NCBI RefSeq assembly: GCF_000585395.1
Contig: NZ_KK073875.1
Coordinates: forward strand, 3,261,307 to 3,325,306
Origin: Saccharibacillus sacchari DSM 19268
GTDB taxonomy: Bacteria; Bacillota; Bacilli; Paenibacillales; Paenibacillaceae
Direction of reading: 5' to 3'
Length of the DNA stretch: 64,000 bases
Of this stretch, positions 28,995 through 58,406 are shown one piece after another. How positions within the stretch are numbered: the first letter of the stretch is position 1; the number at the start of each line of letters is the position of its first letter. A program made the translations under genes and the position numbers. The notes beneath the pieces were generated by a model. It worked only from the letters and a program-made list of their open reading frames with translations, was not told the DNA's origin and searched no databases.

Positions 28995-29093
28995 CGGCGG
29001 AGGGAGAAGTTCGGTGAAAGACGCCTTTGAACGAAGAAAGCTGAAAGCTTTCTTCGTGAGACAGCATCTTGAACGAATTTCTCTCTCCGCCTT
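28995..29093 (+). repeat. Dispersed hairpin element, copy A
   Basis: Outer stem GCGGAGGGAGAAGTTCG / CGAATTTCTCTCTCCGC, a short middle stem (AAGACGC / GCATCTT), then a perfect 12-bp apical stem ACGAAGAAAGCT-GAA-AGCTTTCTTCGT. Between the stems lie the strands GCCTTTGAAC and GTGAGACAGC, which recur unchanged in the other three copies. It lies upstream of the DUF1992 gene. Confidence 0.75.
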
Positions 29094-29253
29094 CAAGCTT
29101 CTCCCAACGAATAGGAATTGCTTGGAATTTGAGCCCCGCCAAAGGATAGCCAAGGCAGGGCTTTTTGTCACGGAAAAGAGAGCCTGCTGCCCAAGGCAAA
29201 AAGAATCAGGTATAATGGAACGACAAAAGTCGATGGGATCGGGAGGGATTCGG

Positions 29254-29628
29254 ATGGGTTGGTTATCGTGGTTGGCGGAGCAGAAGATCGACGAAGCGGC
29301 GCGCAACGGGGAGTTTGACGACTTGCCGGGAAACGGGAAACCGATTGAATTGGAAGATATGTCAGGAGTGCCTGAAGAACTTCGGGTTCCTTATCGGATT
29401 TTGAAAAATGCGGGGATGTTGCCGCAGGAGATTGTGTTGCGAAAAGAATGTTTGGAGTTGGAGGATTTGCTTGCGGCTTGCCGCTCGGATGAAGATCGTG
29501 AGGAAATTGGACGTCGATTGAATACGCAAAGGCTCAAACTTCGGATGGTTGAAGAAGAACGAGGCTGGAGCGGAGGCGCGTATTCGGAATATGCGGACAA
29601 GATCAAGGATCGGTTAGGCGGCGATTAA
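29254..29628 (+). CDS. DUF1992 (DnaJ-C28-like conserved domain) protein
   Basis: 124 residues from ATG 29254, preceded by GGGAGGG; a TATAAT hexamer at 29211-29216 fits its promoter. The whole protein is the DUF1992 domain, with its hallmark EQKIDEAARNGEFDDLPGNGKPIELED followed by RVPYRILKNAGMLPQEI. The family is widespread, and in animals this region is part of the DNAJC28 protein, but the bacterial versions have no J domain and no proven function. The stop codon abuts the repeat at 29629. Confidence 0.85.
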   Translation: MGWLSWLAEQKIDEAARNGEFDDLPGNGKPIELEDMSGVPEELRVPYRILKNAGMLPQEIVLRKECLELEDLLAACRSDEDREEIGRRLNTQRLKLRMVEEERGWSGGAYSEYADKIKDRLGGD

Positions 29629-29810
29629 TGCAGAAATCCAGTTATTTGATTTTTGCTCAAGCTTAAGTTTGAAATACCTGCAAATCTCCATTTATTTTTG
29701 AAAAAGCGTCTGAATTTTGGCTTACGCTTGCTCATTTAAATGGATAAATGCAGGTATTTCGGTGAATATGGAACATATCGAGTCGGATAAATGGATATTT
29801 GCAGTTATTT
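29629..29810. repeat. Short-unit inverted/direct repeat cluster
   Basis: AAATACCTGCAAATCTCCATTTA (29672-29694) and AAATGGATAAATGCAGGTATTT (29738-29759) are imperfect inverted copies. A related unit follows at 29785-29810 (GGATAAATGG, then ATATTTGCAGTTATTT), and another imperfect unit (TGCAGAAATCCAGTTATTTG) lies at 29629-29648. The units fill the convergent gap between DUF1992 and gluQ. A structural or terminator role is possible; I know of no name for it. Confidence 0.6.
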
Positions 29811-29823
29811 GTTCTTGCAAACC

Positions 29824-30771
29824 TTATAAATCAGGCACGTCCACGACGACGGGTTCTCGCGGAATCAAAGACAGATCGAAAGAGCTCACCAGCTCCGCGG
29901 CCGCTACCGCTTCCGGACGGTCGATTAATCCGCTCGCATGAGCCAGCCAGCCGACAAGCTGTTCAGGCGAAGTGCCGCGTTCGCGGAAGGACGAGATCGC
30001 GATGCCGCCGTGACGTTTGGCCAAGCGTTTGCCGTCCGATCCGTTCAATAGAGGGACATGCAGGAAATTCGGCGTTTCGAGTCCCAAAGCTTCATACAAC
30101 AGGATTTGTCTCGGCGTCGAATCCAATAAGTCGTATCCGCGCAGGACGTCAGTGATCTTCATGTCCGCGTCGTCCATCACGACCGACAACTGGTACGAAT
30201 GCAGGCCGTCGGCACGACGAACGACGAAGTCGCCTCCGCTGCCCGGCGCGAAGGATCGGGTTCCGGCGATGCCATCTTCAAAACGAACTTCACGACCTTC
30301 AGGCAGGGCGAAGCGGAGCGAAGGATCTTTATGCAGCGCTTTTTCGGCACGCTGCGCGGCCGTCAGATGCCGGCATGTTCCTGCGTAGGCAGGACCTTCG
30401 GAGGTCAATCCGTGGGGAGCGCTGGCAGCGGACAGAATGTCTGCACGACTGCAAAAGCAGGGATATAGTGCGCCTGCCGCTTCCAACTTCAGCAAGCCTG
30501 CTTCGTATCGTTCCAAACGCTCGCTTTGCGTATAGGGCGCGCAGGGACCGCCGACGTCGGGGCCTTCGTCCCAGTCCAGACCGAGCCAGCGCAGATCGAG
30601 CAGCGCGAGTTCGGCCCATTTTTCACGGGAACGCTCGGTGTCGATATCTTCCATGCGGAGTATGAATTCGCCGTTTAACGAACGCATATGGAGCCAGGAA
30701 ATCAGTGCGGTGCGGGCATTGCCCAAATGCATTTTGCCGGACGGCGTAGGCGCAAAACGTCCGCGTCTCAT
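29824..30771 (-). CDS. gluQ: Glutamyl-Q tRNA(Asp) synthetase
   Basis: 315 residues on the minus strand. It is a truncated glutamyl-tRNA-synthetase-like enzyme that attaches glutamate to queuosine in tRNA(Asp) and does not bind an anticodon. Seen: N-terminal RFAPTPSGKMHLGNARTALISWLHM (HIGH equivalent), RMEDIDTERS, the zinc ligands in CFC and YAGTC, and KRLAKRHGG as the KMSKS equivalent. The C-terminal anticodon-binding domain is missing, as expected for this family, and the length is normal. Confidence 0.93.
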   Translation of the reverse strand: MRRGRFAPTPSGKMHLGNARTALISWLHMRSLNGEFILRMEDIDTERSREKWAELALLDLRWLGLDWDEGPDVGGPCAPYTQSERLERYEAGLLKLEAAGALYPCFCSRADILSAASAPHGLTSEGPAYAGTCRHLTAAQRAEKALHKDPSLRFALPEGREVRFEDGIAGTRSFAPGSGGDFVVRRADGLHSYQLSVVMDDADMKITDVLRGYDLLDSTPRQILLYEALGLETPNFLHVPLLNGSDGKRLAKRHGGIAISSFRERGTSPEQLVGWLAHASGLIDRPEAVAAAELVSSFDLSLIPREPVVVDVPDL

Positions 30772-31000
30772 TATCGTTCACTTCCTTGTTGGGGCGTGCA
30801 CGCAAACCGGTACCTTGCGTTGCTTCAAGGTTTGCATGCAGGCCTTAGTATCGATCAGTAACAAAAGCGTCGCATGAATTCGAATGAATCGGATCAGACA
30901 TACAGGCGAGCTTGACATGATCCATTATACGACACATTTTCTGTAGGCTGAAATTGCATGTTCGAATCAGTCTACTTATAAGGAAAGGGAACTGCCCAAC

Positions 31001-33589
31001 ATGAAAGAAGATCAAGTCCGAAACGCGAAAAAAGAAAGCGATTCCGGCGAAAGGTTCTCCGAAGCTCCTTTTTCCAAAAATAACGCGATAACGTTTCCCG
31101 TCGACTCCGCCCTGCCTGAGCTGAAACGAAGCCTTGCCGCAAATCGTCCCGCGATCCTGATTGCTCAGCCGGGAGCCGGCAAAACGACACGGGTCCCTCC
31201 TGCGCTGCTGCATGAACCTTGGCTGGAAGGGCGCAAGATTCTGATGCTGGAACCCCGGCGGCTTGCGGCGGTATCGGCAGCCGATTACATCGCGGAATCG
31301 CTCGGCGGGAAAACGGGAGAAATAGTCGGTTACCGGATTGCTTTGGATAGCAAATCCAGCTCTCGAACAAGGATCGAAGTTGTGACTGAAGGCATATTAA
31401 CACGGATGCTGCAATCCGATCCTTCCCTGGAAGAAGTAGGTCTGGTCATTTTCGACGAGTTCCATGAGCGCAATCTGCAGGCGGATCTGGGATTGGCTCT
31501 TGCCTTGCAAAGCCGCGCCGTGCTGCGGGAAGATCTGCGTATTCTCGTGATGTCGGCGACGATCGATCCCGAGCCGTTGTCCGGCGTATTGGGCGGGGCG
31601 GACGTGATCCGCAGCGAAGGCAGAGTCTATCCGGTCGAGACGGCGCATCTCGGCGCTGCGCGGGAACTTCCGTTGGAACGCAAGGTGGCGCAGGCCGTGC
31701 GCCGGGCTTGGGAAGAGACGGAGGGAGGAATTCTCGTATTCCTGCCGGGGGTGCGCGAGATTTCGCGCGCGCGGGAAGAGCTGGTCCGCGGCGGAGGACT
31801 GACGGGCGCGGAGATTTTGGCCCTGCACGGCGGGCTGGGGCGCGAAGAACAGCGTCGCGCCGTTCGGGCTTCCGCGGACGGGAAGCGGAAGATCGTGCTC
31901 TCGACCACGCTGGCCGAGTCCAGCATTACGGTCGAGGGGGTGACGGCCGTCGTCGATAGCGGCCTGATGCGGACGCAGGTGTTTTCTCCGCGCACAGGCA
32001 TGTCGCGGTTGGTCACGTTGACCGAATCGCTGGAGTCGGCGGATCAGAGGAGAGGGCGCGCGGGGCGGACTGCGCCGGGTATGTGTTATCGGTTGTGGAG
32101 CCGCGAAGAAGAGTCGGGCATGCCGACTTCCCGGATTCCCGAGATCCTGCAAAGCGATCTCGCGCCGCTTGCGCTCGAACTGGCAGCATGGGGCGTTCGC
32201 GATCCGAAGGAACTGGATTGGGTCGACGCGCCGCCGGAAGCCGGCTATGCGGAGGCGCAGACGCTGCTTCGGCGGCTGCATGCACTGGGCGAAGAAAATC
32301 ATATTACGGAAGAAGGCCGGGCGATGAGCGACCTCGGCGTGCATCCTCGATTGGCCCGGATGATCCGGCGTGCTGCCGGTCTCGATATTGGCTTGCAGGG
32401 CCTTGCCTGCGATCTGGCGGCGCTGCTTCAGGAACAAGCTTCTTCTGCTGCGCCCGCCGGCGGAACGGTGACGGACACCGTGTCCTTGCTGCCGCGTTTG
32501 GAGGCTCTGCTTGCCGCCTCCGGTAAACGGAATTCAGGCACGCCGCGGACGCCGGAAGACCGGGCGGCGGAGCGTGCTGCCAGGCTGCGCCGAATTGCCG
32601 GCGTGACGGAAAGTTCGGATGGCGATCTCCATCGGGCAGGGTTGCTGCTTGCTTACGCTTTCCCCGATCGGATCGGGCGTCTTAGAGGAGGAGGACGATT
32701 CTTGCTTAGCGGCGGACGCGGCGTGTATATGCCCGAGCGGGAACTGCTGTCGAGGGAAGAATACGTGGTCGCCGCCGATATTGACGATCAGGGAAGCGAG
32801 GGACGAATATGGCTTGCGGCTCCGATCGAAGCGGACGATTTGAACCTTTTTGCTGCTGAAGAAGGGATCGAAGAAACATGCGTAGAGTGGGATTCGGACC
32901 GATCCGCCGTATCCGCGCTGCGGATCCGACGGATCGGTGCTGTCATTTTACAGTCGGCGCAAGCTTCTTCGCCCGATCCGGAAGCTGTCGGAGCCGCTTT
33001 GCTGGAAGGAATTCGGGCTGCTGACGGCCGGATTCTTCCATGGGGCAAGGAGGCGAGGGAACTGCAAAACCGCATGATGTTCATGCATCTGGCAGACTCG
33101 GAATTCCCCGCCGCCGACGATGTGACGTTGTTGGCAGAACTGGAAGAGTGGCTGCTTCCTTACGCATCGGGCATTCGCAATGAAGCGCAGCTCAAAAGGC
33201 TTAACCTCCCGCAACTGCTGGAACAGCGTTTAACCTGGGAGCAGCGACGGACGCTGGACGCGGAAGCTCCAACCCGTCTAAGCGTGCCCAGCGGTTCGCG
33301 TATTGCCGTTGATTACAGCGACCCCGAACGTCCTTTCATGGCGGTAAAGCTTCAAGAAATGTTCGGCCAAACCGAGACGCCCCGCATCGGACGCGGACGT
33401 GTGCCGATCACGTTACAATTGCTTTCTCCAGCCCGTCGTCCGGTACAAATCACGTCGGACTTGGCTAATTTTTGGAAAGAAACCTATTTCGAAGTAAAAA
33501 AGGATCTGAAGGGCCGTTACCCGAAACATTACTGGCCGGATGACCCGAACGGAGCCGAAGCGACAAGGCATGTCCGTCCCCGCAACTAA
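31001..33589 (+). CDS. hrpB: ATP-dependent helicase HrpB
   Basis: 862 residues. DEAH/RHA-type helicase: Walker A AQPGAGKTT (residues about 52-60), Walker B box DEFHERNLQ (about 152-160), motif III MSATID, motif V/VI STTLAESSITVEGV and DQRRGRAGRTAPG, then a ratchet-like HA2 region and the HrpB C-terminal domain ending in ARRPVQITSDLANFWKETYFEVKKDLKGRYPKHYWPDDP, the diagnostic HrpB tail. It is probably an RNA or nucleic-acid helicase; the physiological role in bacteria is not settled. The many large open frames in other frames and on the opposite strand are shadows caused by its high GC. Confidence 0.95.
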   Translation: MKEDQVRNAKKESDSGERFSEAPFSKNNAITFPVDSALPELKRSLAANRPAILIAQPGAGKTTRVPPALLHEPWLEGRKILMLEPRRLAAVSAADYIAESLGGKTGEIVGYRIALDSKSSSRTRIEVVTEGILTRMLQSDPSLEEVGLVIFDEFHERNLQADLGLALALQSRAVLREDLRILVMSATIDPEPLSGVLGGADVIRSEGRVYPVETAHLGAARELPLERKVAQAVRRAWEETEGGILVFLPGVREISRAREELVRGGGLTGAEILALHGGLGREEQRRAVRASADGKRKIVLSTTLAESSITVEGVTAVVDSGLMRTQVFSPRTGMSRLVTLTESLESADQRRGRAGRTAPGMCYRLWSREEESGMPTSRIPEILQSDLAPLALELAAWGVRDPKELDWVDAPPEAGYAEAQTLLRRLHALGEENHITEEGRAMSDLGVHPRLARMIRRAAGLDIGLQGLACDLAALLQEQASSAAPAGGTVTDTVSLLPRLEALLAASGKRNSGTPRTPEDRAAERAARLRRIAGVTESSDGDLHRAGLLLAYAFPDRIGRLRGGGRFLLSGGRGVYMPERELLSREEYVVAADIDDQGSEGRIWLAAPIEADDLNLFAAEEGIEETCVEWDSDRSAVSALRIRRIGAVILQSAQASSPDPEAVGAALLEGIRAADGRILPWGKEARELQNRMMFMHLADSEFPAADDVTLLAELEEWLLPYASGIRNEAQLKRLNLPQLLEQRLTWEQRRTLDAEAPTRLSVPSGSRIAVDYSDPERPFMAVKLQEMFGQTETPRIGRGRVPITLQLLSPARRPVQITSDLANFWKETYFEVKKDLKGRYPKHYWPDDPNGAEATRHVRPRN

Positions 33590-33678
33590 AGCGATTTTGC
33601 GCGGGAAAAGTCGGTTTTCCGCATAAAAGAATCGCTCGCCTCAATAGACCTGCATCCCTGGCGCGCCGATAACTCCGC

Positions 33679-33703
33679 GTTTCGCCTGCCCTGCATCGGG
33701 TAA
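33679..33703 (+). promoter_or_regulatory. SigB-like promoter upstream of the stress protein gene
   Basis: GTTTCG (33679-33684), a 13-base spacer and GGGTAA (33698-33703) match the Bacillus SigB pattern GTTTAA-N12-15-GGGTAT with one change in each hexamer's tail. It lies 60 bp before a gene of the YflT stress family, the kind of gene SigB controls in Bacillus. Whether this organism has a SigB is not visible here. Confidence 0.45.
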
Positions 33704-33762
33704 TAAAGAAACGAACACGAATCCCAAGTCAGTTGGGAACAACGATGAAGGAGGAGTTTAAC

Positions 33763-34446
33763 ATGGCGAAAAAAATTGTAGGGGTATTCGAAAACGAGCG
33801 GGAAGCTTCGCTGGCGATTCAGAACCTTCAGGAGCGAGGGTTTACTTCAGACGAAATTTCGGTAGTGGCAAAAGATCGCAACGACTTAAGAGCGATAGAT
33901 GAAGAGACAGGCACAAAGGCTCCGGAAGGCTTGGCCGCAGGAGCAGCGACAGGCGGCGTGCTCGGCGGCGTAACGGGTCTGTTGGCCGGAGTCGGCGCGC
34001 TGGCAATTCCGGGGATCGGGCCGATTCTGGCAGCCGGGCCTCTGGCAGCGGCAATTGCGGGCATGGCGGTAGGAGCCGGAGCAGGCGGTTTGGTCGGCGG
34101 TCTGGTAGGACTGGGCATTCCGGAGAACGAAGCGGAAGAATATCAGGAGTATCTGAATCAAGGGAATATTTTGGTTCTGGTCGATGAAGACAACCGCAGC
34201 CGCGACGTATACAACTCGTTCCGCGACAACCGTTCGGTAAACGCCAATCGTTACCATTTGACGGAAGAAGGATATGGCAACGAGATGCATACGGGCGGTT
34301 CGGTGAATCCGGAAACGAACATGGAAGCCGAGCAGGTAGGGATTTCAAATCGAAATTCGGCAGATTCGATCAGCGAAGCAGAACGCCGTCGGGCGATTGA
34401 CGATCCGTCGGATACGCTGCCACCGCGCGGGGATCGAGGCATTTAA
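33763..34446 (+). CDS. General stress protein (YflT/GSP17M-like) with glycine-zipper segment
   Basis: 227 residues from ATG 33763 behind GGAGGAG. Residues 1-50 form the YflT-type domain (KKIVGVFENEREASLAIQNLQERGFTSDEISVVAKDRND). Residues about 60-125 are glycine/alanine-rich and hydrophobic (AAGAATGGVLGGVTGLLAGVGALAIPGIG ... GAGGLVGGLVGLGIP), as in glycine-zipper membrane-inserting segments. IPENEAEEYQEYLNQGNILVLVDED completes the family pattern. The last 70 residues are hydrophilic and probably disordered. A SigB-like promoter precedes it. Confidence 0.85.
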   Translation: MAKKIVGVFENEREASLAIQNLQERGFTSDEISVVAKDRNDLRAIDEETGTKAPEGLAAGAATGGVLGGVTGLLAGVGALAIPGIGPILAAGPLAAAIAGMAVGAGAGGLVGGLVGLGIPENEAEEYQEYLNQGNILVLVDEDNRSRDVYNSFRDNRSVNANRYHLTEEGYGNEMHTGGSVNPETNMEAEQVGISNRNSADSISEAERRRAIDDPSDTLPPRGDRGI

Positions 34447-34518
34447 AAAGAATAACGCGAGAGGGTCTGCTGCGCATCGGCAGCGATAAGCATGATCCTA
34501 CATCAGAGTTTCATTCAA

Positions 34519-34543
34519 AAGGCGCCTTCGGGCGTCTTTTTTT
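34519..34543 (+). terminator. Intrinsic terminator
   Basis: AAGGCGCC-TTCG-GGCGTCTT is a short GC-rich stem with a stable TTCG loop, followed by seven T. Confidence 0.9.
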
Positions 34544-34640
34544 GGTTGGCACGGCCGTTCGAATCGAAGATCGCGTGAATCAAGGCCTGTCTTCATTTAT
34601 AATAGAGCAACAATAAAGCACAGAAAGAAGGGAAATGTAG

Positions 34641-35254
34641 ATGGCTTCATCGTCGGAGAGAAAGCTTCGCAAACCCGATATATCGACTCTGTTCCATGCG
34701 CCGACCGGCGGCGAGGGATTACGCTGGCTTGAACAGGGAGATAAACGGCAGCGGGGATTGGCAGCTTAATGGAGCAGCTTGCCTTGTACCGTCCTTCGAT
34801 AGCGGGTACGTTTCCGATCGGGATCGATATTCCGGGCAGCGATCTGGACGTGTTATGCGAAGTTCATAACCATGAGGAATTTTTGCGGATATGCGCAAGC
34901 CGATATGGGCATTTGGACGGATTTGAAGCCGATCGGCGCAGCGCGGAGGGGGAAGAACGCTCGGTTGTGCGATTTTTATGGGAACAGATCCCGATCGAGT
35001 TGTTCGGACAGGGACGACCTCCCGCTTTGCAGAACGGATGTCGGCATATGATTGTAGAGCGTCGGCTGTTGGCGTTGGACGAACCTTCGGTAGCGGAGTC
35101 TATTCGTACTCTTAAGCAGGCAGGATTGAAGACGGAACCTGCGTTTGCCTCTTTTTACAAGTTGCCCGGCAATCCTTACGAGGTCATGTATCGACTGGCT
35201 GAAGCTGATGAGCAAGAGCTTCGCCGGATTGTTTTAAAGCGTCAAATTAACTAA
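34641..35254 (+). pseudogene. DUF4269 family gene interrupted by a one-base frameshift
   Basis: Two frames together encode one DUF4269 protein. The first, ATG 34641 with GAAGGGAA upstream, gives 42 residues ending LRWLEQGDKRQRGLAA at TAA 34767. The second starts at ATG 34769 inside that stop (TAATG) and gives 161 residues beginning MEQLALYRPSIAGTFPIGIDIPGSDLDVLCEV, the family's nucleotidyltransferase-like core. Adding one T at 34767 would read AA-L-MEQL straight through, which matches how complete DUF4269 proteins run. So either a T was lost (mutation or sequencing error) or the second part is made by reinitiation at TAATG. The function of the family is unknown. Confidence 0.7.
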
Positions 35255-35465
35255 TTATTTTATCAAGTGAAAAATTCACAATAGTAAACATGAGCTTATC
35301 GCTTCTTACCAACATATGCATTGGTCTTTGCTCTCCCTCTGAAAAAAGGAGAAAAGCGCCGCTTCGCTCTTTTTCACAAAAAAACCGGGTCAAAAGATGT
35401 GAAAACGCAAAAATTCAGTTATAATGAAAGGGAACAAACGTTCACCCGAAAAGGAGGAGGAAAGC

Positions 35466-35831
35466 ATGGCCTTCATGATCGCCCAACGGGCATTTATCAA
35501 ACTGTACCTCATCACCATGGTTGAGCAGCAACGCGGATACGGATACCAGATGCTCGAAGAGATGAAGGAGAACTTCAAGCCCTTCGGGTACGTGCCTCCA
35601 CAGAGCGAAATTTACCGTGCGCTGCACGAGCTGGTGCACGAAGGCGTCTTTTACCGGACCAAGCAGCTCAAAGGCAACGATCCCCGCGTCGATTTCCAGG
35701 AAATCGTGCTGTATCATTTTACGGAAGACGGACCGGAGAAAGCTAATTTATACAAAAAACAGGTCAAAACCGATCTGGATCGCTGCTTGGGAATGTTGAA
35801 CAAAGCGGCTGAAGATAATTACGGAGTTTGA
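35466..35831 (+). CDS. rtp: Replication terminator protein (RTP) homologue
   Basis: 121 residues from ATG 35466 behind AAGGAGGAGG; the length equals that of Bacillus subtilis RTP (122). The winged-helix protein follows RTP along its whole length: QRAFIKLYLITMVEQQRGYGYQMLEEM, EIYRALHELVHEGVFYRTKQ, EIVLYHFTEDG and the C-terminal dimer helix ANLYKKQVKTDLDRCLGMLNKAAEDN. RTP dimers bind Ter sites and stop replication forks by contact with DnaB. I found no convincing Ter sequence nearby, so a changed role as an ordinary transcription regulator is possible. A TATAAT (35420-35425) lies upstream. Confidence 0.82.
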   Translation: MAFMIAQRAFIKLYLITMVEQQRGYGYQMLEEMKENFKPFGYVPPQSEIYRALHELVHEGVFYRTKQLKGNDPRVDFQEIVLYHFTEDGPEKANLYKKQVKTDLDRCLGMLNKAAEDNYGV

Positions 35832-35839
35832 TTCGCTCA

Positions 35840-35880
35840 AAAGATACGCGCCGAACAGGCTTAATGCGTATCTTTTTTTA
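35840..35880 (+). terminator. Intrinsic terminator after the rtp homologue
   Basis: The stem AAAGATACGC / GCGTATCTTT encloses a 16-base loop and runs into a T tract. Confidence 0.85.
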
Positions 35881-35960
35881 CGGGGAAAGAAAGGCGATTG
35901 GCAGAGCAATAAGAAAGCGTTATCATGATAATGGATAGGTTATTTAAAGGAGGGAACGAT

Positions 35961-36962: not shown

Positions 36963-36982
36963 AAACATCAGGCAACGAGAAG

Positions 36983-39147: not shown

Positions 39148-39187
39148 GTCTGTTTTTCTCCGCATGTCGAGAAAGTCCGGCGTAACC

Positions 39188-39358
39188 GGAAGACAGGAGA
39201 CGGAGAGAGAAATTCAGTTCAAGACGCCTTTGAACTCGGAAAATTCCTTAGTTAAATCCAATCCTTTTTCCGAGTGAGACAGCGAATTGTGAAGCATTTC
39301 GAAGAAATGCACTTCGGAAGCGTATGCTGGCAATTTCTCTCGCAGTCTTTTGTCTTCC
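39188..39358 (+). repeat. Dispersed hairpin element, copy B
   Basis: The outer stem is 27 bases long with a few mismatches: GGAAGACAGGAGACGG, then AGAGAGAAATT, pairs with AATTTCTCTCGCAGTC, then TTTTGTCTTCC. Inside are GACGCCTTTGAAC, an apical stem (ACTCGGAAAA / TTTTTCCGAGT) and GTGAGACAGCG. About 50 bases with their own small hairpin (GCATTTCGAAGAAATGC) are inserted in the 3' half. It lies after the ArsR-type gene. Confidence 0.78.
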
Positions 39359-39388: not shown

Positions 39389-39418
39389 AAGACGGTCAAT
39401 CCTGACCGTCTTTTTCTT
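39389..39418 (+). terminator. Intrinsic terminator
   Basis: AAGACGGTCA-ATCC-TGACCGTCTT, a perfect ten-pair stem, is followed by a T-rich run. It lies after the hairpin element B. Confidence 0.92.
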
Positions 39419-48413: not shown

Positions 48414-48459
48414 GTCCTGTTTGTAAAACGGAGGCGCTGCGCAGTTTTACGAACAGGAC
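48414..48459. repeat. 16-bp inverted repeat (hairpin)
   Basis: GTCCTGTTTGTAAAAC (48414-48429) and GTTTTACGAACAGGAC (48444-48459) pair at 15 of 16 positions, the last being G-T, over a 14-base loop with GCGC. There is no T-run. It could be a relic element or an RNA structure. Confidence 0.6.
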
Positions 48460-50246: not shown

Positions 50247-50619
50247 GATGGCAGGAGACAGGCACAGAACAAGCGTCAGCAGAAAAATAAAAATAAAGTT
50301 GCCCCCGTTTTTCGCGATGCGAGAAACGTTCCGGGGCCTTCGTATTCGATTAGATATAAGGAAACGACCCCTTTCAATATGTAGGTCTTACGCGCGATTT
50401 CGGGCCGGAAATTCATATATTATGCAAATGCTGAAATATGAAAGTTCAACTACACAAATTGTATGGAGAACAAACGCACATGTCAAATGAACGTTCAAAA
50501 ACGTCATTTTGGTTTATATAATTTTGAAACTGACTTTACAAAAGCAAGCGGGTATGTACGACGGGCGGCAAAACGATCGATGCCTGAGCCTGCATAATCG
50601 GAGAGGAGCTTTCTTTATT

Positions 50620-51531
50620 ATGGTATACGATTGCATCATTATCGGAGGAGGAATTGCCGGTACTCAAGCTGCGATTCAATTGGGACGCTACAGCGGGCAT
50701 AACGTGCTGGTGATCGATGCCGGTCACGGCCGCTCCTCCGTGTGCCATACCTATCATAATATTATCGGTTGGCCCGAAGGCGTGACCGGCGAACATTTGC
50801 GCAAAGTAGGCAGAGAGCAGGCGGAAAGTCTAGGCATCGAGTTTATGGAAGGAACCGTGACCGAAGCCGCGCGCGACGGCGAACGATTTGTTCTGACGAC
50901 AGGCGACGGTAACCGGTTTACCGCGCACACGGTATTGATCGCAACCGGCATGCTGGATCGTTACCCGGATATCGAAGGGCTGCGCCACGCTTTGGGATAT
51001 AGCATTTACATTTGTCCGGACTGCGACGGCTACGAGATCGTGGATCGGAAAACGGTATTGATCGGATCGGGCGAGCACGGATCGGGCATGGCGGTATTGT
51101 TGGCCGAACGGACGCCTCACGTTACCTATATCAATCATGAACGAAAGCCGATCGAACAGCGCTTGCTCGACCATTTGGAAGAGATCGGCGTAACCTACCT
51201 CGAACAGCCTGTAGCGCAAGTGCGTTCGGACGAGCACCACGATATTCAGTCGGTCGTGCTGACGGACGGAACGGTCATCGAAGCGGAACGCGGATTCATC
51301 GCTTTCGGGGGCAACCATGTCCGGTCGGAACTTGCGGAGCAGCTCGGCGTTAAGCTGGAGAGCAATCGTCATATCAAAACCGATTCCCGAACCAAAATGA
51401 CGGACGTCGAAGGCGTGTGGGTAGCCGGGGATATCGGGCTGCATTCCGAACTTTCCACCATCGCCATGGGAGAAGGGACGCAAGCAGCTATTTGGATACA
51501 CAAAAAATTGCGCAAAATTCATAAAAGCTAA
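50620..51531 (+). CDS. Thioredoxin-reductase-like FAD/NAD(P) oxidoreductase
   Basis: 303 residues from ATG 50620, with GAGAGGAGC ten bases before. The FAD motif is CIIIGGGIAGTQAAIQL (N-terminus), the redox-active disulfide is CPDCDGY (residues about 131-137), the NAD(P) site is VLIGSGEHGSGMAVLLAE, and the C-terminal FAD contact is VWVAGDI. The layout is that of low-molecular-weight thioredoxin reductase, though the disulfide context (CPDCDG rather than CATCDG) and the weak glycine pattern of the NAD(P) site place it among the side branches. The partner is unknown. Confidence 0.87.
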   Translation: MVYDCIIIGGGIAGTQAAIQLGRYSGHNVLVIDAGHGRSSVCHTYHNIIGWPEGVTGEHLRKVGREQAESLGIEFMEGTVTEAARDGERFVLTTGDGNRFTAHTVLIATGMLDRYPDIEGLRHALGYSIYICPDCDGYEIVDRKTVLIGSGEHGSGMAVLLAERTPHVTYINHERKPIEQRLLDHLEEIGVTYLEQPVAQVRSDEHHDIQSVVLTDGTVIEAERGFIAFGGNHVRSELAEQLGVKLESNRHIKTDSRTKMTDVEGVWVAGDIGLHSELSTIAMGEGTQAAIWIHKKLRKIHKS

Positions 51532-51649
51532 AACGTTAGGGTTCATATTCGGCTGAGAGGTTAATAATAGTGCAGCAGGTGCTAGACACTTTGAAATGAA
51601 CGCCGTTAGATCCGCTTAAAGAAACCCACAACCGAGAGGAGAACTAACT

Positions 51650-52003
51650 ATGAGCGACAACATCAAAGAACAACAGCATGCGGTAACGAAAGACGGAGAA
51701 TTGCATACGGACAAGGTCGAGCAAACCATCGATCGCATCAGCGACGACAAAAAAGACAAGATCCTGCAGGATTTTGAAGAGTTCAAAAAATACTTGCATA
51801 ACCGGATCAAAATCGGAGAAAGCATCGGGCTGGGCGAAGAGCAATTGGCCAAAGTGGCCGAAAAAGTAGCCGGTTATCTGGCAGCCAACGAAGAACCGCG
51901 CAATAGCGAGGAAAAGCTGCTTCAGGAACTGTGGAAGGTCGGCGACCAGGATCAGCGCCATAAGCTGGCGCATTTGTTGGTTCGCTTGGCTCAAAACTCT
52001 TAA
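51650..52003 (+). CDS. DUF3243 family protein
   Basis: 117 residues behind GAGAGGAGA. The C-terminal 75 residues (FEEFKKYLHNRIKIGESIGLGEEQLAKVAEKVAGYLAANEEPRNSEEKLLQELWKVGDQDQRHKLAHLLVRLAQN) match the DUF3243 fold, as in Bacillus YmfJ. The N-terminal 40 residues are a charged extension not usual for the family. All helical, cytoplasmic, function unknown. A terminator follows about 135 bp on. Confidence 0.85.
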   Translation: MSDNIKEQQHAVTKDGELHTDKVEQTIDRISDDKKDKILQDFEEFKKYLHNRIKIGESIGLGEEQLAKVAEKVAGYLAANEEPRNSEEKLLQELWKVGDQDQRHKLAHLLVRLAQNS

Positions 52004-52139
52004 CATTCGAATGGCTTGATATAAGCGGGCATACCGTTCCTCGCCAAAGAGGCCAACCCGCCGATCAGTCGGTTTTTACAAAAATCGGATCCTTGATCTC
52101 ACACATCTTACGACGCACAACAAAGCAGCCACCGATTTT

Positions 52140-52177
52140 GGGAAAGCCTTCTGGTAGCAGAGAGGCTTTCCCTTTTT
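52140..52177 (+). terminator. Intrinsic terminator
   Basis: GGGAAAGCCT / AGGCTTTCCC over a 13-base loop, followed by five T. It separates the DUF3243 gene from the Hsp70 operon, whose likely -10 (TATAAT) lies at 52208-52213. Confidence 0.9.
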
Positions 52178-52263
52178 CAGTTTTATGGAATTAAAAGGGC
52201 TATGGGTTATAATGAGGAATAAATAGATTCAGGAATACAAAACCGAAGAGCGAGGTGAACGTA

Positions 52264-53964
52264 GTGCCGATTATCGGAATCGATTTGGGAACGACTCACA
52301 GCTTGGTATCCTACCGGACGGAAGAGGGCAGCACGCTGATTCCGAATGCGCTCGGAAACGTGCTGACGCCTTCGGTTGTCGGGGTAGACGATAACGGTCA
52401 GATTTTAGTCGGAGAAATTGCCAAGGAGCGTCTGATTACGCATCCTGAGCGAACGGCTGCGCTTTTTAAGCGATACATAGGCACGGACCGGCGCTACAAG
52501 CTGGGAGAGTATAAATTTTCGCCGGAGGACCTGTCTGCGTTCGTACTGCGCTCATTGAAGCAGGATGCGGAAGCTTTTCTCGGCGAGTCCATAGAAGAAG
52601 CGGTCATCAGCGTTCCGGCTTATTTCAACGATATTCAACGCAAAGCGACCAAACGGGCGGGAGAGCTTGCCGGGCTGCGCGTGGAACGCCTGATCAATGA
52701 GCCGACGGCTGCCGCCGTGGCGTACGGTCTGCATTTGGAACAGGAAGAAAGCCAGTTCCTCGTTTTCGACCTTGGAGGAGGGACGTTCGACGTATCGATC
52801 CTTGACATGTTCGAAGGCATCATGGAAGTGAAGTCGGTGGCCGGGGACGCGTTTCTCGGCGGCGAAGACTTTACGGACATGTTGATTGACCGTTTTTTGG
52901 AACGTTTCGGCCTGGAACGCGATTCGCTCGACAACCGGACGATGGCGGCGCTGCGCAAGCAGGCCGAGCAGGGAAAGCGAATGTTGACCATGCAGCAGGA
53001 CGCGAAGCTTGCTTGCACGGTTGACGGCGAGATCCACGAATGGGTGATTGACCGGGGATTATTCGATCACCTGTCAAAGCCGCTGCTTAACCGTCTGCGC
53101 AATCCGGTAGAACGGGCTTTGAAGGATGCGTCGCTTAGTCCCAAAGAGCTGAACGAGATCATTTTGGTCGGAGGAGCTACGCGGATGCCGCTGATTTACT
53201 CGTTTGCGGCACGGTTATTCGGTCGTCTTCCGGCAGCGCGTATCCACCCGGACGAGACGATCGCGATCGGGGCCGGGATTGTCGCTGCGATGAAGGAACG
53301 CCGCGAAGAACTCAAGGAAGTCGTGCTCACCGATGTTTGTCCGTATACGTTGGGTACGATGGTCACGGTGAAAAACGGGGACGGCGGCTATGATAACGGA
53401 CACTTTTTCCCGATCATCGAACGCCATACCGTAATTCCGGCCAGCCGCGTCGAGCGATTCTATACCGTTAGCGATGATCAGAAGGCGATTCGCATTGAAA
53501 TCTATCAAGGCGAAAACCGTCTGACGCGCAATAATATCAAATTGGGACAGTTGGAGATTCCCGTTCCTGCGAGCCGTGCGGGAGAGGAGGCTGTCGATCT
53601 TCGTTTTACGTATGACATCAACGGAATACTGGAAGTGGAGGCGACGACGCTGTCCACGAACGAGACCCATCGGCTGTTGATCCGCGAAGACGTGAGCGGC
53701 ATGTCGCTGGAAGAAGTCGAGAAAAGGTTCAGCGAGCTGGAAGCGATTAAAATCCATCCTCGCGACAAGGCGGAAAATCGTCTGCTGCTGGCTCGGGGAG
53801 ACCGGATTTACGAAGAGACGCTGGGCAGCGCGCGAACGCGAATTGCCGGAGCGCTGAGACGTTTCGAGACGGCGCTGGGGCGGCAGGACGAACGGGAAAT
53901 CCGCAAGGAAGCGGGGATGCTGAAAGAGCTGCTGGAATTGGCGGAAAAACAGCCGGAGGACTGA
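52264..53964 (+). CDS. hscC: HscC-like Hsp70 chaperone
   Basis: 566 residues from GTG 52264, placed five bases after AGGTGA; GTG 52255 is an alternative. Hsp70 ATPase domain: GIDLGTTHSLVSY, VPAYFNDIQRKATKRAGELAGL, INEPTAAAVAYGL, VFDLGGGTFDVSILD and ILVGGATRMPLI. The substrate-binding domain follows, but the C-terminal lid is short, so the total is nearer HscC (about 556) than DnaK (about 610), and there is no EEVD-like or GGA tail. The next two genes encode a J-domain/TPR protein and a DUF1266 protein, the same kinds of genes that surround hscC in Escherichia coli. This context is the main reason for calling it HscC-like. Confidence 0.85.
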   Translation: MPIIGIDLGTTHSLVSYRTEEGSTLIPNALGNVLTPSVVGVDDNGQILVGEIAKERLITHPERTAALFKRYIGTDRRYKLGEYKFSPEDLSAFVLRSLKQDAEAFLGESIEEAVISVPAYFNDIQRKATKRAGELAGLRVERLINEPTAAAVAYGLHLEQEESQFLVFDLGGGTFDVSILDMFEGIMEVKSVAGDAFLGGEDFTDMLIDRFLERFGLERDSLDNRTMAALRKQAEQGKRMLTMQQDAKLACTVDGEIHEWVIDRGLFDHLSKPLLNRLRNPVERALKDASLSPKELNEIILVGGATRMPLIYSFAARLFGRLPAARIHPDETIAIGAGIVAAMKERREELKEVVLTDVCPYTLGTMVTVKNGDGGYDNGHFFPIIERHTVIPASRVERFYTVSDDQKAIRIEIYQGENRLTRNNIKLGQLEIPVPASRAGEEAVDLRFTYDINGILEVEATTLSTNETHRLLIREDVSGMSLEEVEKRFSELEAIKIHPRDKAENRLLLARGDRIYEETLGSARTRIAGALRRFETALGRQDEREIRKEAGMLKELLELAEKQPED

Positions 53965-53965
53965 C

Positions 53966-56446
53966 ATGAATATTTGGGCTACGTTAGGAATTGAACCGAC
54001 GTCGGAAGTAAAAGCGATCAAGCGTGCCTATGCGCGTCGTTTGAAGGAATGCCATCCGGAAGAAGATCCGGAAAACTTTCAACAGATCCGAAGATCGTAC
54101 GAATCGGCACTGGAAGAAGCCAAAGAGCTTGCCGAGCGCGATATTCGAGCCCAACTGAGCGACAGCGAGCTTGAACAGTTGAGAAGTCCCGAGCCTAGCG
54201 CAGCCAGACCGGGAGACGAGTCTCCGATTACTGTTTTTTTGCGTCGCTGCGAGGAATTGTATGCGGATATTTCCCGGCGCGTCGATCCCGAGGAGTGGCA
54301 AGCTTTGCTTGACGACGAGCTGTTCTGGCCGATCGAGATTCGCGAACGCATCGGAGACGAACTGTTTGGGTTTTTGCTTAAGCATTCCTTTTTGCCCAAG
54401 AAAGTGTTGAATCTGCTTGACGGGCATTTCGAGTGGACAATGAGGGAACGCAGGCTTTACGAAGACTACGACAAAGCGGAAATTACGCTGTTCATGGAAC
54501 GCTTCTCCAGCTTCTGGGAACTGCGTTATGATTCTTTGTGGACGGATGAGCCTTATGATTACGACGCTTTTTTGCGGTTTCGCGAACAGGCGCATTACGC
54601 GCTTGTCGTGAATGACCTGGACCTGGCAGAGAAGGCACTTAAAGGAGCGGCGCTGCTGAACAACCGGGAGCCGGACTGCCTGCGTCTGATCGCTTTATTT
54701 TACATGCGGAAAAATCAGCCGGATTCGGCCCTTCAGGTGTTGGAACAATGGCTGAAGGACGAACCGGACGAGCCGGAAGCAAGACTGATGCGGGCCGATG
54801 CGTTGCTCCGTCGCGAGAACCCCGAGTCTGCATTGGCGGACTATCGGGAATTGTTGGAGCTTCTGCCCGGAAGCATTCATGCTCTAAGCGGCATAGCGGC
54901 CTGCAAGGAAGCGCTGGGCCAACTTTGGGAAGCCAAAAAAGCGTACGAGGACCTCTGCGCGCGCTACCCGGAAGATCTGGATGCCCAGATCCGTCTGCTT
55001 GTCCTCAATGACAAATTGGCCAATGAACTGACTGAAGGCGACGGCGATGCCCTGGCAGGCGCCAGAACGCTGGCCGAGTTGTACTTGGACACCGGAAGGG
55101 AAGCGGAATGCGTGGCTCTGCTGCTTGAAACGGAGCAAGGACAACCGCTGAGCGCCGAACTTAATTTTCTTTTGGGCAAGGCTCTGGGCAAGCTGGAACG
55201 GTATACGGAGAGCGAAGAACGGCTTAACCGCGCGGTGAATCAAACGGAATCCGAACCGCTGAAGCAGTCCGACGTGTTGAAATTGCGCGGCCTGATTCGT
55301 ATCGCGTTGGATCGATTCGAAGAAGCGCGCGACGATCTGAAGCGCGTGCTGCTGTTCCAGCCGTCCGATCCGGAAGCTTTATATCGTTTCGGCGAGTCTT
55401 TGCGGATGGAAGGACGTTATGAAGAAGCGCTTCAACTGCTTAATCATGCCTTGGAGTTGTCCTCGCATTGGTATTATCATTCGGCGCGCGGCGACTGCTT
55501 CTATTCCCTGCGCCGTTATCCGGAAGCCTTGCTGGATTATCTTCGCGTGATCCAATATGATCGGGGATTGACCGAAGCTTGGTTCCGCGCCGGTTACTGC
55601 TTTTTGCGAATCGGCGATTACGCGCACGCCGTGGAATATTTCGGAGAGGCTATGGGACGCGGCTTCCCGGAAGCGATTTTGTTGTTGATCGCGGAGGCTC
55701 ATTTTCGGGCAGGCGATTTCAAGTTGGCGGCGGAACTGGCAGACCGGTATAATCGCGAACGGCCGAACGATTACTACGGACGCATCGTCGAAGGGGATCT
55801 GTATCGGGCGTCCGATCAGGCGGCCGAAGCGCTGGAGCGTTACCGGAGCGCGGCTTTGCTGGCTCCGACGGAATATCTGCCGCTAAGGCTGGTCGCCGAA
55901 ATGCTGCTTCGGCTGGATCGGGCAGAAGAGGCGGAACTGGAATTGGCGGTGCTTGCGGAGCGGCATCCGCATCGAGGCTGGGCGCATTTGCAACGTATCC
56001 GCCTTCTGATCGAAGCGAGACGCTGGAGAGACGCGGAGACGGCGATCGTGCGCTATACCGAGCAGATCGAACCGAAGGAGCAGGACCCGCTTGTTTTGTT
56101 TTACGGAGGCTACATCTTATTCAGGTTGGAGCAGCATGAGCAGGCTATTGAATTTTTGGAAGCGGCTTGCAAAGTTGGGCTTGAGCGCGAGTCCGAGGAG
56201 TATCTGATTCGCTGCTTGGCTGCACTTGGCCGGTACGATCAAGCGGAAGCGCTTGCGTCTCAAGCTCTTGCTGCGGATGCTGCGCGGCCTATGCTGGTTG
56301 AGATCGGGCAAGCGCTGGAACGGCATTCTACCCGCAAATGGAAATTGCTGCGCCGCAGTCGCGAAGCCGAACTGCCCGAAGTCGAGGCTCGCCCGGTTCT
56401 GCCCGAACCTGAGGGAGAGCGACTGCCTGACATTCACGGATTTTAA
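53966..56446 (+). CDS. J-domain protein with long TPR array (DjlB/DjlC-like N-terminus)
   Basis: 826 residues; ATG 53966 lies one base after the hscC stop, so coupled translation is likely. Residues 1-60 form a J domain of DjlB/DjlC type (MNIWATLGIEPTSEVKAIKRAYARRLKECHPEEDPENFQQIRRSYESALEEA), in which the canonical HPD is HPE. Residues about 210-800 are tandem TPR helices (repeated patterns such as AxxLxRRENPESALADYRELLELLPGSIHALSGIA and YRFGESLRMEGRYEEALQLLNHALEL). It should deliver clients to the Hsp70 encoded just upstream. E. coli DjlB and DjlC are much smaller, so the TPR array is an elaboration. Confidence 0.85.
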   Translation: MNIWATLGIEPTSEVKAIKRAYARRLKECHPEEDPENFQQIRRSYESALEEAKELAERDIRAQLSDSELEQLRSPEPSAARPGDESPITVFLRRCEELYADISRRVDPEEWQALLDDELFWPIEIRERIGDELFGFLLKHSFLPKKVLNLLDGHFEWTMRERRLYEDYDKAEITLFMERFSSFWELRYDSLWTDEPYDYDAFLRFREQAHYALVVNDLDLAEKALKGAALLNNREPDCLRLIALFYMRKNQPDSALQVLEQWLKDEPDEPEARLMRADALLRRENPESALADYRELLELLPGSIHALSGIAACKEALGQLWEAKKAYEDLCARYPEDLDAQIRLLVLNDKLANELTEGDGDALAGARTLAELYLDTGREAECVALLLETEQGQPLSAELNFLLGKALGKLERYTESEERLNRAVNQTESEPLKQSDVLKLRGLIRIALDRFEEARDDLKRVLLFQPSDPEALYRFGESLRMEGRYEEALQLLNHALELSSHWYYHSARGDCFYSLRRYPEALLDYLRVIQYDRGLTEAWFRAGYCFLRIGDYAHAVEYFGEAMGRGFPEAILLLIAEAHFRAGDFKLAAELADRYNRERPNDYYGRIVEGDLYRASDQAAEALERYRSAALLAPTEYLPLRLVAEMLLRLDRAEEAELELAVLAERHPHRGWAHLQRIRLLIEARRWRDAETAIVRYTEQIEPKEQDPLVLFYGGYILFRLEQHEQAIEFLEAACKVGLERESEEYLIRCLAALGRYDQAEALASQALAADAARPMLVEIGQALERHSTRKWKLLRRSREAELPEVEARPVLPEPEGERLPDIHGF

Positions 56447-56463
56447 GGAAGGGGCGGGAGCCT

Positions 56464-57159
56464 ATGGAAACGCTGCGTATACGCGAGACCGATCAACGAA
56501 CCCTGCGCATATTTGCGATCGGAGCCGTGTTGTTTCGGATGAACGGACTGCTGGAGGAAACCGGCTTTGCCTGGCCGGCTTCGCGGAAAGACGATCTTCG
56601 CAAACTATTGGCGCATACATGGTCGGTGCAGGACGAAGAGTCCTTGGAAAAGCATCTGAACTGGTTATGGGAAGAAGGCGGGCAAGCCTCTTATCGCAAA
56701 ACCGAATCTTTTCTCGGTACGTTGTCTTTTCGCGATCGGGAGCCTTACTTTGAACGTTTAAACGGCAATGCGGCTCTATTCAACCACGCTCGCCTCGTAC
56801 AGATGTACAGCGGCAAGCTTCCTCCGGCGGGAATTACGGCCTGGGATCTGGGGCAGTACGTTTTTATTTGCCGAACGGCCCACTCCGCTGGATGGATGGA
56901 CGCGGATCGCTCGCTTGAATTAGCGACTGCGGCCGCCCATCGCGCGCAACAGCTCTATCGCGACTGGACCGAATTTGCTGTGGCCTACCTGGCCGGACGG
57001 CAAATATGGACCAATCAACCTTCCGCGGAAGCGGCGAAACCTTATATCGATTGCGTGTCGAAGTTGCTAACCGAATCCAATAGTCTGTGGAAACGTCTGG
57101 ATTGGAATATGGATCTGCTCACAGAACGTTCAATTAACCCAGCGACAGACTCGGAATAA
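56464..57159 (+). CDS. DUF1266 domain protein in the hscC operon
   Basis: 231 residues behind GGAAGGGGCGGG, 17 bp after the J-domain gene. The second half holds the DUF1266 signature: ITAWDLGQYVFICRTAHSAGWMDADRSLELATAAAHRAQQLYRDWTEFAVAYLAGRQIWTNQ. The first half is helical and without known match. In E. coli two DUF1266 genes (ybeR, ybeU) alternate with djlB, djlC and hscC, so their recurrence here suggests that DUF1266 is a functional part of this Hsp70 system. Its biochemical role is unknown. Confidence 0.82.
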   Translation: METLRIRETDQRTLRIFAIGAVLFRMNGLLEETGFAWPASRKDDLRKLLAHTWSVQDEESLEKHLNWLWEEGGQASYRKTESFLGTLSFRDREPYFERLNGNAALFNHARLVQMYSGKLPPAGITAWDLGQYVFICRTAHSAGWMDADRSLELATAAAHRAQQLYRDWTEFAVAYLAGRQIWTNQPSAEAAKPYIDCVSKLLTESNSLWKRLDWNMDLLTERSINPATDSE

Positions 57160-57164
57160 AGGTG

Positions 57165-57225
57165 TTGACTCTCTAACTGAACTGATATATAGTTTATTAC
57201 GAAAAGTTATTTAAAATACTTTCGT
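57165..57225 (+). promoter_or_regulatory. SigA promoter and candidate operator of the nitroreductase gene
   Basis: TTGACT (57165-57170), a 17-base spacer and TATAGT (57188-57193) form a good SigA promoter. Just downstream, ACGAAAAGT (57199-57207) and ACTTTCGT (57218-57225) form an imperfect inverted repeat over the start region. A repressor site is plausible; a thiol- or quinone-sensing regulator would fit the gene. Confidence 0.6.
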
Positions 57226-57248
57226 GAATCGATGAGGAGGATTTTACC

Positions 57249-57851
57249 GTGGCAAAAGAATTTTTCGAGGCGCTTAAATCCAGACGTTCCATCTACGGAA
57301 TCGGCAAGGATGTTTCCGTAAACGAAGCAAAGATTCAAGAAATCGTGGAAGATGCAGTCAAATATACGCCAACTTCATTTAACTCCCAAACTTCCCGCGC
57401 GGTTGTGTTGTTCGGCGAACAGCACGACAAGGTCTGGGATATTACCTTGGCTGAACTGAAAAAAGTAGCAGCATCCGAAGAAGCATTTGCTGCAACAACC
57501 GATAAAATCAACTCGTTCAAAAGCGGCTACGGCACGATCCTGTTCTTCGAAGATCAGGATATCGTGAAGAACCTGCAAAACCAATTCGCTCTGTATGCCG
57601 ACAACTTCCCGATCTGGGCCGATCAATCTTCGGGCATGCTGCAACTGGTAGTATGGACGGCGCTGCACGACGAAGGTCTGGGCGCAACGCTGCAACATTA
57701 CAATCCTCTGATCGACGCAGGCGTGCAAGAAGCTTGGAACCTGCCTTCGAGCTGGAAGCTGAGAGCGCAAATGCCTTTCGGCAGCCCGCTAGCACCTGCC
57801 GGCGAGAAAGCTTTCCAACCTGTGGAAGAGCGCGTTAAAGTGTTTAAATAA
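57249..57851 (+). CDS. Nitroreductase family protein, FRM2/HBN1-like
   Basis: 200 residues from a GAGGAGG-preceded ATG-type start at 57249 (read here as GTG). It belongs to the short Frm2-like nitroreductases: MAKEFFEALKSRRSIYGIGKDVSVNEAKIQEIVEDAVKYTPTSFNSQTSRAVVLFG, GYGTILFFED, FPIWADQSSGMLQLVVWTALHDEGLGATLQHYNPLID and the C-terminal MPFGSP. In Bacillales such enzymes are induced by quinones and diamide and controlled by HxlR-type repressors. It is monocistronic, with its own strong promoter. Confidence 0.9.
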   Translation: MAKEFFEALKSRRSIYGIGKDVSVNEAKIQEIVEDAVKYTPTSFNSQTSRAVVLFGEQHDKVWDITLAELKKVAASEEAFAATTDKINSFKSGYGTILFFEDQDIVKNLQNQFALYADNFPIWADQSSGMLQLVVWTALHDEGLGATLQHYNPLIDAGVQEAWNLPSSWKLRAQMPFGSPLAPAGEKAFQPVEERVKVFK

Positions 57852-57865
57852 GACGACGGATGGTG

Positions 57866-57974
57866 CTGCGGGAGAAATTCGTTCAAGTCGCTGTCTCACC
57901 CGGAAAAACCGATTAGAATTTTAGTGGAAGTTTTCCGAGTTCAAAGGCGTCTTGAACTGAATTTCTCCCTCCGC
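57866..57974 (-). repeat. Dispersed hairpin element, copy D (reverse orientation)
   Basis: Read on the minus strand it begins GCGGAGGGAGAAATTCAGTT, continues AAGACGCCTTTGAAC, has the apical stem ACTCGGAAAA / TTTTTCCGGGT, then GTGAGACAGCG, and closes with ACTTGAACGAATTTCTCCC. It lies directly after the nitroreductase stop and faces copy C, 300 bp away, in inverted orientation. Confidence 0.77.
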
Positions 57975-58016
57975 TTACGTCGCTTCGTTTTGTGTGAGGT
58001 AGTTGAAAAGATAAGA

Positions 58017-58046
58017 AAAGAAGCAGAGATGTCTGCTTCTTTTTTG
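58017..58046 (+). terminator. Intrinsic terminator of the nitroreductase gene
   Basis: AGAAGCAGA-GATG-TCTGCTTCT followed by six T. Confidence 0.93.
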
Positions 58047-58079
58047 ATTGTTTAAAAAGAAAAATAAATCTTTTCTACT

Positions 58080-58122
58080 TTGACAAAGGGCTTTCTATAC
58101 CTTAAAATAGAACATGTGTTCT
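58080..58122 (+). promoter_or_regulatory. Strong SigA promoter with a LexA-type box
   Basis: TTGACA (58080-58085), a 17-base spacer and TAAAAT (58103-58108) are near consensus. Immediately after lies AGAACATGTGTTCT (58109-58122), a perfect palindrome matching the Gram-positive LexA/DinR pattern GAAC-N4-GTTC. The box would cover the transcription start. An AAAGGAG site follows at 58138-58144 but no conventional gene does before 58613. Confidence 0.65.
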
Positions 58123-58209
58123 TGTTTAATTGAGAGAAAGGAGAATTTTTATATAACAGCTCTTATACATAATGAAATTTGCGCAAAATTTGAGGGTTAG
58201 GTTATAGAA

Positions 58210-58269
58210 ATGATAGCGATTGTAGTCGTTTTTTTAAAATCCCTTAAGTACCAACTAACCCCACCGTAA
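58210..58269 (+). CDS. Possible SOS-linked hydrophobic micropeptide (19 aa)
   Basis: ATG 58210 opens a 19-codon frame, MIAIVVVFLKSLKYQLTPP, ending at TAA 58267. Half of it could form a short membrane helix, as in small toxic or division-inhibiting peptides made under SOS control. The upstream GAGGGTTAGG is only a fair ribosome binding site, and a better one (AAAGGAG, 58138-58144) is 65 bases away without a start next to it. The call rests on the LexA-type promoter and is weak; the transcript may equally be non-coding. Confidence 0.25.
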   Translation: MIAIVVVFLKSLKYQLTPP

Positions 58270-58271
58270 CT

Positions 58272-58406
58272 GGAAGCGAGAAGACGGAGAGAGAAAATCA
58301 GTGATAAACGCCTTTGAACTTGGAAAACCTCCAACTAAAATTTCAATCCAGTTTTCCAAGTGAGACAGCGTTTTGAACGAATTTCTCTCGGAGTCTTCTC
58401 GCTTCC
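58272..58406 (+). repeat. Dispersed hairpin element, copy C
   Basis: The outer stem GGAAGCGAGAAGACGGAGAG pairs with its near-complement at 58386-58406 over more than 20 bases. Middle stem AAACGC / GCGTTT is perfect. Apical stem ACTTGGAAAAC / GTTTTCCAAGT is perfect. The conserved strands GCCTTTGAAC and GTGAGACAGC are present. This is the most regular copy of the four. Confidence 0.8.

Follow-up and report, generated by a model that had tools for sequence, protein, structure and literature searches.

In the IS1182 family, IS1272 and TnSha1 insert at terminators and at other stem-loops, showing little preference for particular sequences, and are reported to delete the target stem-loop partly or wholly, with no duplication (PMC5678879, PMC4923244); duplication of the stem-loop is drawn only as an alternative pathway (PMC5678879, Fig 13, pathway b). 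The hairpin elements that we describe here have in common with IS1272 and TnSha1 the transposase family of their putative partner and the habit of targeting stem-loops. They differ in that they carry no transposase of their own, and in that the whole stem-loop is duplicated rather than deleted, clearly so at 13 of 22 loci. Three other groups of dispersed repeats invite comparison. REP, REPIN and BIME elements (PMC3733652) likewise occur as many intergenic palindromic copies and as inverted pairs; the present element is longer, has a conserved internal loop and other ends, and is abundant in two genomes that contain no Y1 transposase. The bcr1 and similar Bacillus repeats, compared by their description in PMC2267715, are alike in dispersion, intergenic place, size and conserved fold. 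Finally, MRSC-65-2, also compared by description (PMC11109978), shares a covarying long stem, dozens of copies per genome and suspected mobility, and differs in its occurrence in diverse phyla and its UYCCGG repeat; section 13 of that paper mentions neither a partner insertion sequence nor a rule for the target.

The window, by which we mean the whole 64,000-nucleotide stretch of Saccharibacillus sacchari DSM 19268 that was analysed, contains four copies of the element at the places given by the original prediction, each with both conserved 10-mers exact, and all four are eroded. Copy A (28995..29093, + strand) is a plain core with a short apical hairpin and eroded ends. Copy B (39188..39358, +) has long outer arms around the core and an extra hairpin module in its right arm (GCATTTCGAAGAAATGC at 39294-39310). 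Its left terminal repeat, TGTCGAGAAAGTC (39165..39177, +), is the sole recognisable intact IS1182-type end among the four copies. Copy C (57866..57974, -), a plain core located 15 bp past the stop codon of an ORF ending at 57851, forms a divergent pair with copy D (58272..58406, +), whose core is extended by the long outer arms GGAAGCGAGAAGAC/GTCTTCTCGCTTCC. Two stem-loops that, as read from the sequence, resemble intrinsic terminators with their T-runs accompany these copies, one directly to the right of copy B (39390..39415, +) and one between C and D (58020..58045, +). The stem sequences that had been predicted are present, but the labels C and D had been exchanged in describing them: the pairs ACTTGG/CCAAGT and AAACGC/GCGTTT belong to copy D, while copy C on the reverse strand has ACTCGG/CCGGGT and AAGACGC/GCGACTT. 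An outer hairpin that lacks the core lies at 48417..48456 (strand not assigned); the orthologous place in S. endophyticus CCM 8702 carries an element inside the hairpin, which could reflect either a loss here or a gain there, the difference being unpolarised. The window also holds a second element with inverted repeats, about 200 bp long (AGGGCGTGTCTTCAAACC...GGTTTGAAGACACGCCCT), at 3336-3535 and at about 28644-28844; the latter copy lies in a stretch adjoining copy A, and this stretch is missing at the orthologous place in S. endophyticus.

Further copies are plentiful in the same and in related genomes. In the genome from which the window was taken (G000; 6.08 Mb, one contig) the pattern GCCTTTGAACN{10,40}GTGAGACAGC occurs 65 times on the forward and 106 times on the reverse strand, 171 in all, and in S. 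endophyticus CCM 8702 (G015) 147 times; read backwards, the same pattern is found in neither genome. It is rare in 57 other relatives, where five of 14 further congeners have 1-3 exact copies each and none of the 43 non-congeners has any. A covariance model of the element, R1, is less restrictive, matching all 16 Saccharibacillus genomes (from 2 to at least 150 matches per genome) and 45 of 197 genomes across the window's family, which we take to be Paenibacillaceae. The search of this family by covariance model that had been proposed was also made with a second model, R2, which detects the inner fold: with 21 candidates scored per genome, it matched 168 of the 197 genomes, in 14 of 19 genera, and in the window it gave exactly four matches, copies A, B, C and D. 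In a sample of the phylum, R2 matched five of 299 genomes, all five in the window's family, and found nothing in the other 294, of which the 20 listed are each from another family. Four of 62 stretches with the exact pattern fell outside Saccharibacillus, in Butyrivibrio, Brochothrix, an alphaproteobacterium and a Rhodothermales bacterium, and we regard them as chance matches, to be expected in that collection for 20 bases interrupted by a gap of variable length. The original prediction knew of no named element with these strands, and this agrees with Rfam, where no family reached its gathering score: the only matches in the window were 23S and 5S rRNA, every match around copies C and D up to an E-value of 10 was under the gathering score, and at 20 loci the matches overlapping the element at E-values up to 5 were mir-3155 (30.5 of 70 bits) and mir-5365 (23.5 of 70). 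The open-licence papers that were found do not describe the family either. The hairpins thus belong to a large family of small, folded DNA elements that lie between Saccharibacillus genes and have apparently not been described before.

The organisation of the complete element is most readily seen in another Saccharibacillus genome (G002), where five near-identical copies (L251-L255) define a unit running from TCAACG-TGTCGAGAAAGTC to GGACTTTCTCGACA-GCCTGA. The intact unit is 204 bp long, can be written as TCAACG-TGTCGAGAAAG...folded core...CTTTCTCGACA-GCCTGA, and contains no gene; nor was a gene found inside the hairpin among 203 left halves that we examined for gene-split elements. Outside the unit the five loci differ, save for a flanking stem-loop, which is each locus's own and is duplicated directly outside the element. 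These duplications span 18-25 bp, four being exact and one having a single mismatch, and in most cases an A-run borders them on one outer side, a T-run on the opposite one. Among all DNA fetched, 23 elements had both ends, representing 22 distinct loci (one without the core motif), and at 14 of these the flanking duplication outscored all 3000 mismatched pairings; 13 of the 14 are clear stem-loops, the remaining one (L102, 10 bp) being weak, and eight loci had no duplication above control. The 22 loci are a non-random sample, several of the positive ones having been fetched for their recent appearance. With looser selection, which gave 41 copies, the flanks of the same locus had a mean score of 10.2, compared to 6.3 in the control, and roughly a dozen copies exceeded the control for direct flank similarity.

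The ends of the unit are nearly shared with an insertion sequence. A 1558-bp IS with the ends TCAGA(G/A)TGTCGAGAAAC...GTTTCTCGACAGCCTGA is present in three Saccharibacillus genomes (G000, at C1:3475373-3476930 and hence outside the window, G002 and G003), and the unit is identical to it in 14 of 17 letters on the left and 16 of 17 on the right. These terminal repeats are found in intact copies of the element and, in part, in copy B of the window. Both frames of the IS match the IS1182 profile (NF033551) in G000 and G003, and those in G000 contain DDE and DUF772 domains. Its transposase occupies two frames, 190 and 257 aa long, in L201 (10158-11518) and in L270 (1471-2831), a layout that, being shared, perhaps reflects frameshifting and not chance decay. 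The surroundings of the IS resemble those of the unit: in G003 it is enclosed by a repeated GGAGCGGCCCCCTATGGGGGCCGCTCC, one copy on either side, and in G000 element and IS are found side by side in the order stem-loop, element, stem-loop, IS, stem-loop, while the hairpins to the left and right of the copy in G002 are unlike each other. Another IS1182 member in G000, with a single frame and other ends, also has a duplicated stem-loop at its flanks. CRISPR-like direct repeats (...GGAGCGTGGATTGAAAC; L201 9600-9780, about 3474906-3475086 on C1) immediately precede the terminator in G000 at which hairpin element and IS1182 copy both sit. Across the genus, seven of 16 genomes match the IS1182 profile, four of them over the curated cut-off. 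A match is found in seven of the eight genomes with at least 10 exact terminal repeats and in none of the eight others (p = 0.0014); two of the seven (G008 and G015) have only weak fragments, and when only matches over the cut-off are counted the comparison becomes four of eight against none of eight (p = 0.08). The repeat-rich genome with no match, G007, has 13 exact repeats. G014 combines 109 R1 matches with no exact terminal repeat and no IS1182 match, and one of its copies (L307) has degenerate ends flanked by two similar terminators.

These observations suggest that the intact copies are best read as IS1182-type miniature inverted-repeat transposable elements (MITEs), and we consider it probable that the family as a whole consists of such MITEs, mostly eroded, mobilised now or formerly in trans by a DDE transposase of the IS1182 family. 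The transposase would carry the unit to an intrinsic terminator, whose stem-loop would probably be extruded as a cruciform, and join the unit at the feet of this stem-loop, where the two strands would be cut on opposite sides. Repair would then copy the whole stem-loop, leaving the order stem-loop, element, stem-loop, and the ends would erode afterwards, so that degraded copies such as A-D may descend from units of this kind. The apical hairpin of a resident copy could subsequently be replaced, most simply via gene conversion through the shared arms. The duplicated stem-loops fit the alternative pathway b of PMC5678879 (Fig 13).

Insertion at terminators with duplication would explain why copies tend to lie at the 3' ends of genes with a terminator on both sides. 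We examined the placement of 111 copies from 1.66 Mb of G000 and G015, based on crude gene calls. In this sample 47 copies lie between convergent genes, 57 in tandem contexts and seven between divergent genes, while 21 of the 111 fall inside a called frame, which may be a false call. Considering intergenic stretches of at least 150 bp, a copy is held by 30 of 103 convergent ones and by five of 127 divergent ones. A terminator-like hairpin is found at most 200 nt from the left end of 66 of the 111 copies, from the right end of 43, and on either side of 82, compared to 185 of 1000 random windows; the enrichment is modest, since 261 of 465 element-free intergenic stretches hold such a hairpin too. 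A rule by which copies would be oriented opposite to the genes was also considered and fails in tandem contexts, with 28 copies against 29.

The fold itself is well supported. It is a long imperfect hairpin in which the conserved strands oppose each other across an internal loop, with optional hairpin modules in either arm and a common three-way variant. Folding z-scores are -9.1, -5.3, -6.5 and -8.9 for copies A, B, C and D, respectively, and only -1.8 for a shorter cut of copy B that omits the outer arm. From 97 distinct copies our script retained 69 and excluded 28 (inserted-module copies, one chance match, and some misparsed plain copies, among them copy C of the window), and omitting four orthologous near-duplicates left an alignment, A1, of 65 rows, to which species beyond those of G000 and G015 contribute six; copies A and D are included, B and C are absent. 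With a structure of 33 pairs written by hand, 94.9% of the pair cells in A1 hold standard pairs and 24 of the 33 pairs have changes on both sides; none of 500 shuffles reached either the paired fraction or the double-change count, and sliding the structure along the alignment lowered the paired fraction to 28-47%. A further alignment, A3, of 32 rows (weak matches from five other genera together with Saccharibacillus variants) gave 89.7% paired cells and double changes in 16 of 21 pairs, again with 0 of 500 shuffles, while the number of further pair types was unexceptional (94 of 500 shuffles). The covarying stems that had been predicted from four copies are thus strongly upheld in both alignments. 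In all 32 A3 sequences CGCCTTT and CAGCG are invariant, so the internal loop is constant across genera.

Covariation of this strength, an invariant loop and a location at gene 3' ends are also what one would expect if the copies were transcribed 3'-UTR RNA elements (stabilisers, processing sites or protein-binding sites) under selection where they stand, and the retention of copies between species points in the same direction: among 102 copies of G000 and G015 with usable flanks, 79 have an orthologous copy in the other genome and 23 have none, a further nine being unplaceable. What happens within shared loci is less favourable to this explanation. The apical hairpin could be parsed at 33 shared loci and not at 6 others; its identity is 0.8 or more at 20 of the 33 and lower at 13, compared to a median of 0.62 and a 95th percentile of 0.83 between unrelated copies. 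At the 20 loci with like hairpins, paired sites do show fewer differences than unpaired ones (7.5% and 13.2%, respectively), but single changes break a pair in 145 cases and keep it in 64 (both directions counted), the pair-keeping share being only 31%, compared to 23% expected without selection (p = 0.08); double changes keep the pair in 16 cases and break it in 13. Since single changes mostly break pairs, the covariation lies chiefly between copies and lineages instead of accruing through compensation in place. Wobble pairs, moreover, are rare (G-U in 35 of 1689 cells in A1 and two of 543 in A3), and orientation relative to the gene is not fixed in tandem contexts. We therefore regard selected 3'-UTR RNAs as an unlikely explanation. 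The original prediction had left the choice between a structured RNA and a structure-dependent mobile element; it is the mobile element that finds support, whereas an RNA maintained in place is weakly supported. Since pairing is weakly conserved in place, and since the apical hairpins are unlike each other at 13 of the 33 loci, the fold seems to be tied to mobility.

Those 13 loci, whose right flanks are still 0.86-1.0 alike by local alignment, bear on another possibility, namely that template-switch DNA repair of imperfect palindromes produces the paired changes, which would make the covariation the product of a mutational process and not of selection on the fold. The paucity of wobble intermediates would agree with this, as would one locus at which the element has opposite orientations in the two species (the region of 3347100 on C1 of G000, L195 1825-1920, - strand; L177 16270-16363 of G015, +). 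Such repair should, however, erase a mismatched internal loop, and the two loop strands are invariant in A3. The mismatches themselves give a divided signal: the excess of G.T over A.C in A1 (35 to 8) favours one strand and so speaks against template switching, whereas A3 leans the opposite way (2 to 11). We find it doubtful that template switching accounts for the pattern. Inverted pairs (all 23 neighbours less than 700 bp apart are arranged - then +, with orthologous pairs counted in both genomes), high copy number and hairpin shape might suggest that a Y1 (RAYT, IS200/IS605-type) transposase moves the copies as a REP/REPIN-like element, which is very improbable given that the inverted ends of the unit are of the DDE type, that its target is duplicated and that PF01797 is found in one of 16 Saccharibacillus genomes (G006) and is absent from G000 and G015. 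The Y1 matches in G006 are L118 and L119, one full length and the other a fragment with a stop. Two further candidates were a reverse-transcriptase or group II intron route and the IS1634 family, the latter on account of the long duplications associated with it; IS1634 was dropped when IS1182 copies with matching ends came to light.

A comparison of empty sites in related strains had been proposed. Between G000 and G015, two loci resemble occupied and empty states of one terminator, the direction being unpolarised: in one the element lies between GGAGCCGTTAATGGCTCC and GAAGCCATTAATGGCTCC in G000 and a single stem-loop stands there in G015, and the reverse case is also seen. The unshared copies that were aligned mostly retain a piece of the element and are mostly partial deletions, not fresh insertions.

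Outside Saccharibacillus, the inner fold is found within different ends. Near-identical copies within single genomes (L284-L289 in G204, L290-L293 in G120, L277-L283 in G023 and L256-L262 in G128) show it there without duplicated terminators, as judged by eye, and IS1182 need therefore not be the carrier everywhere. The outer ends are of the IS1182 type in Saccharibacillus and CTATATAAGTTGAAC, GGTGAAA and others elsewhere, with CTATATAAGTTGAAC...GTTCAACTTATATAG in G204. Tandem arrays also occur in other genera (L294 in G168, C15; L159/L166 in G063, C43), the figures being four copies with a period of 151 bp and several copies with a period of 260 bp. One could tentatively speculate that the folded core is an independent selfish module of the whole family, the inherited unit being the fold and not the transposon ends. 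Such a module would be kept by a process acting on the folded strand, to which a host factor or transposase might bind or through which copies might exchange hairpins, and this process would be able to swap the apical hairpin of a resident copy without altering its arms.

A repeat family of this size is missing from Rfam 15, and its history carries a caution, in that RNA covariation of textbook appearance can arise from mobile DNA hairpins. Direct tests of the mechanism are possible in G002, with its near-identical copies, and in G003, where exact ends are numerous. If the proposed mechanism is true, the duplicated stem-loops of Saccharibacillus would be the footprints of a transposase that recognises a terminator hairpin by its structure and duplicates it whole, an outcome so far only drawn as an alternative in the IS1272 model.
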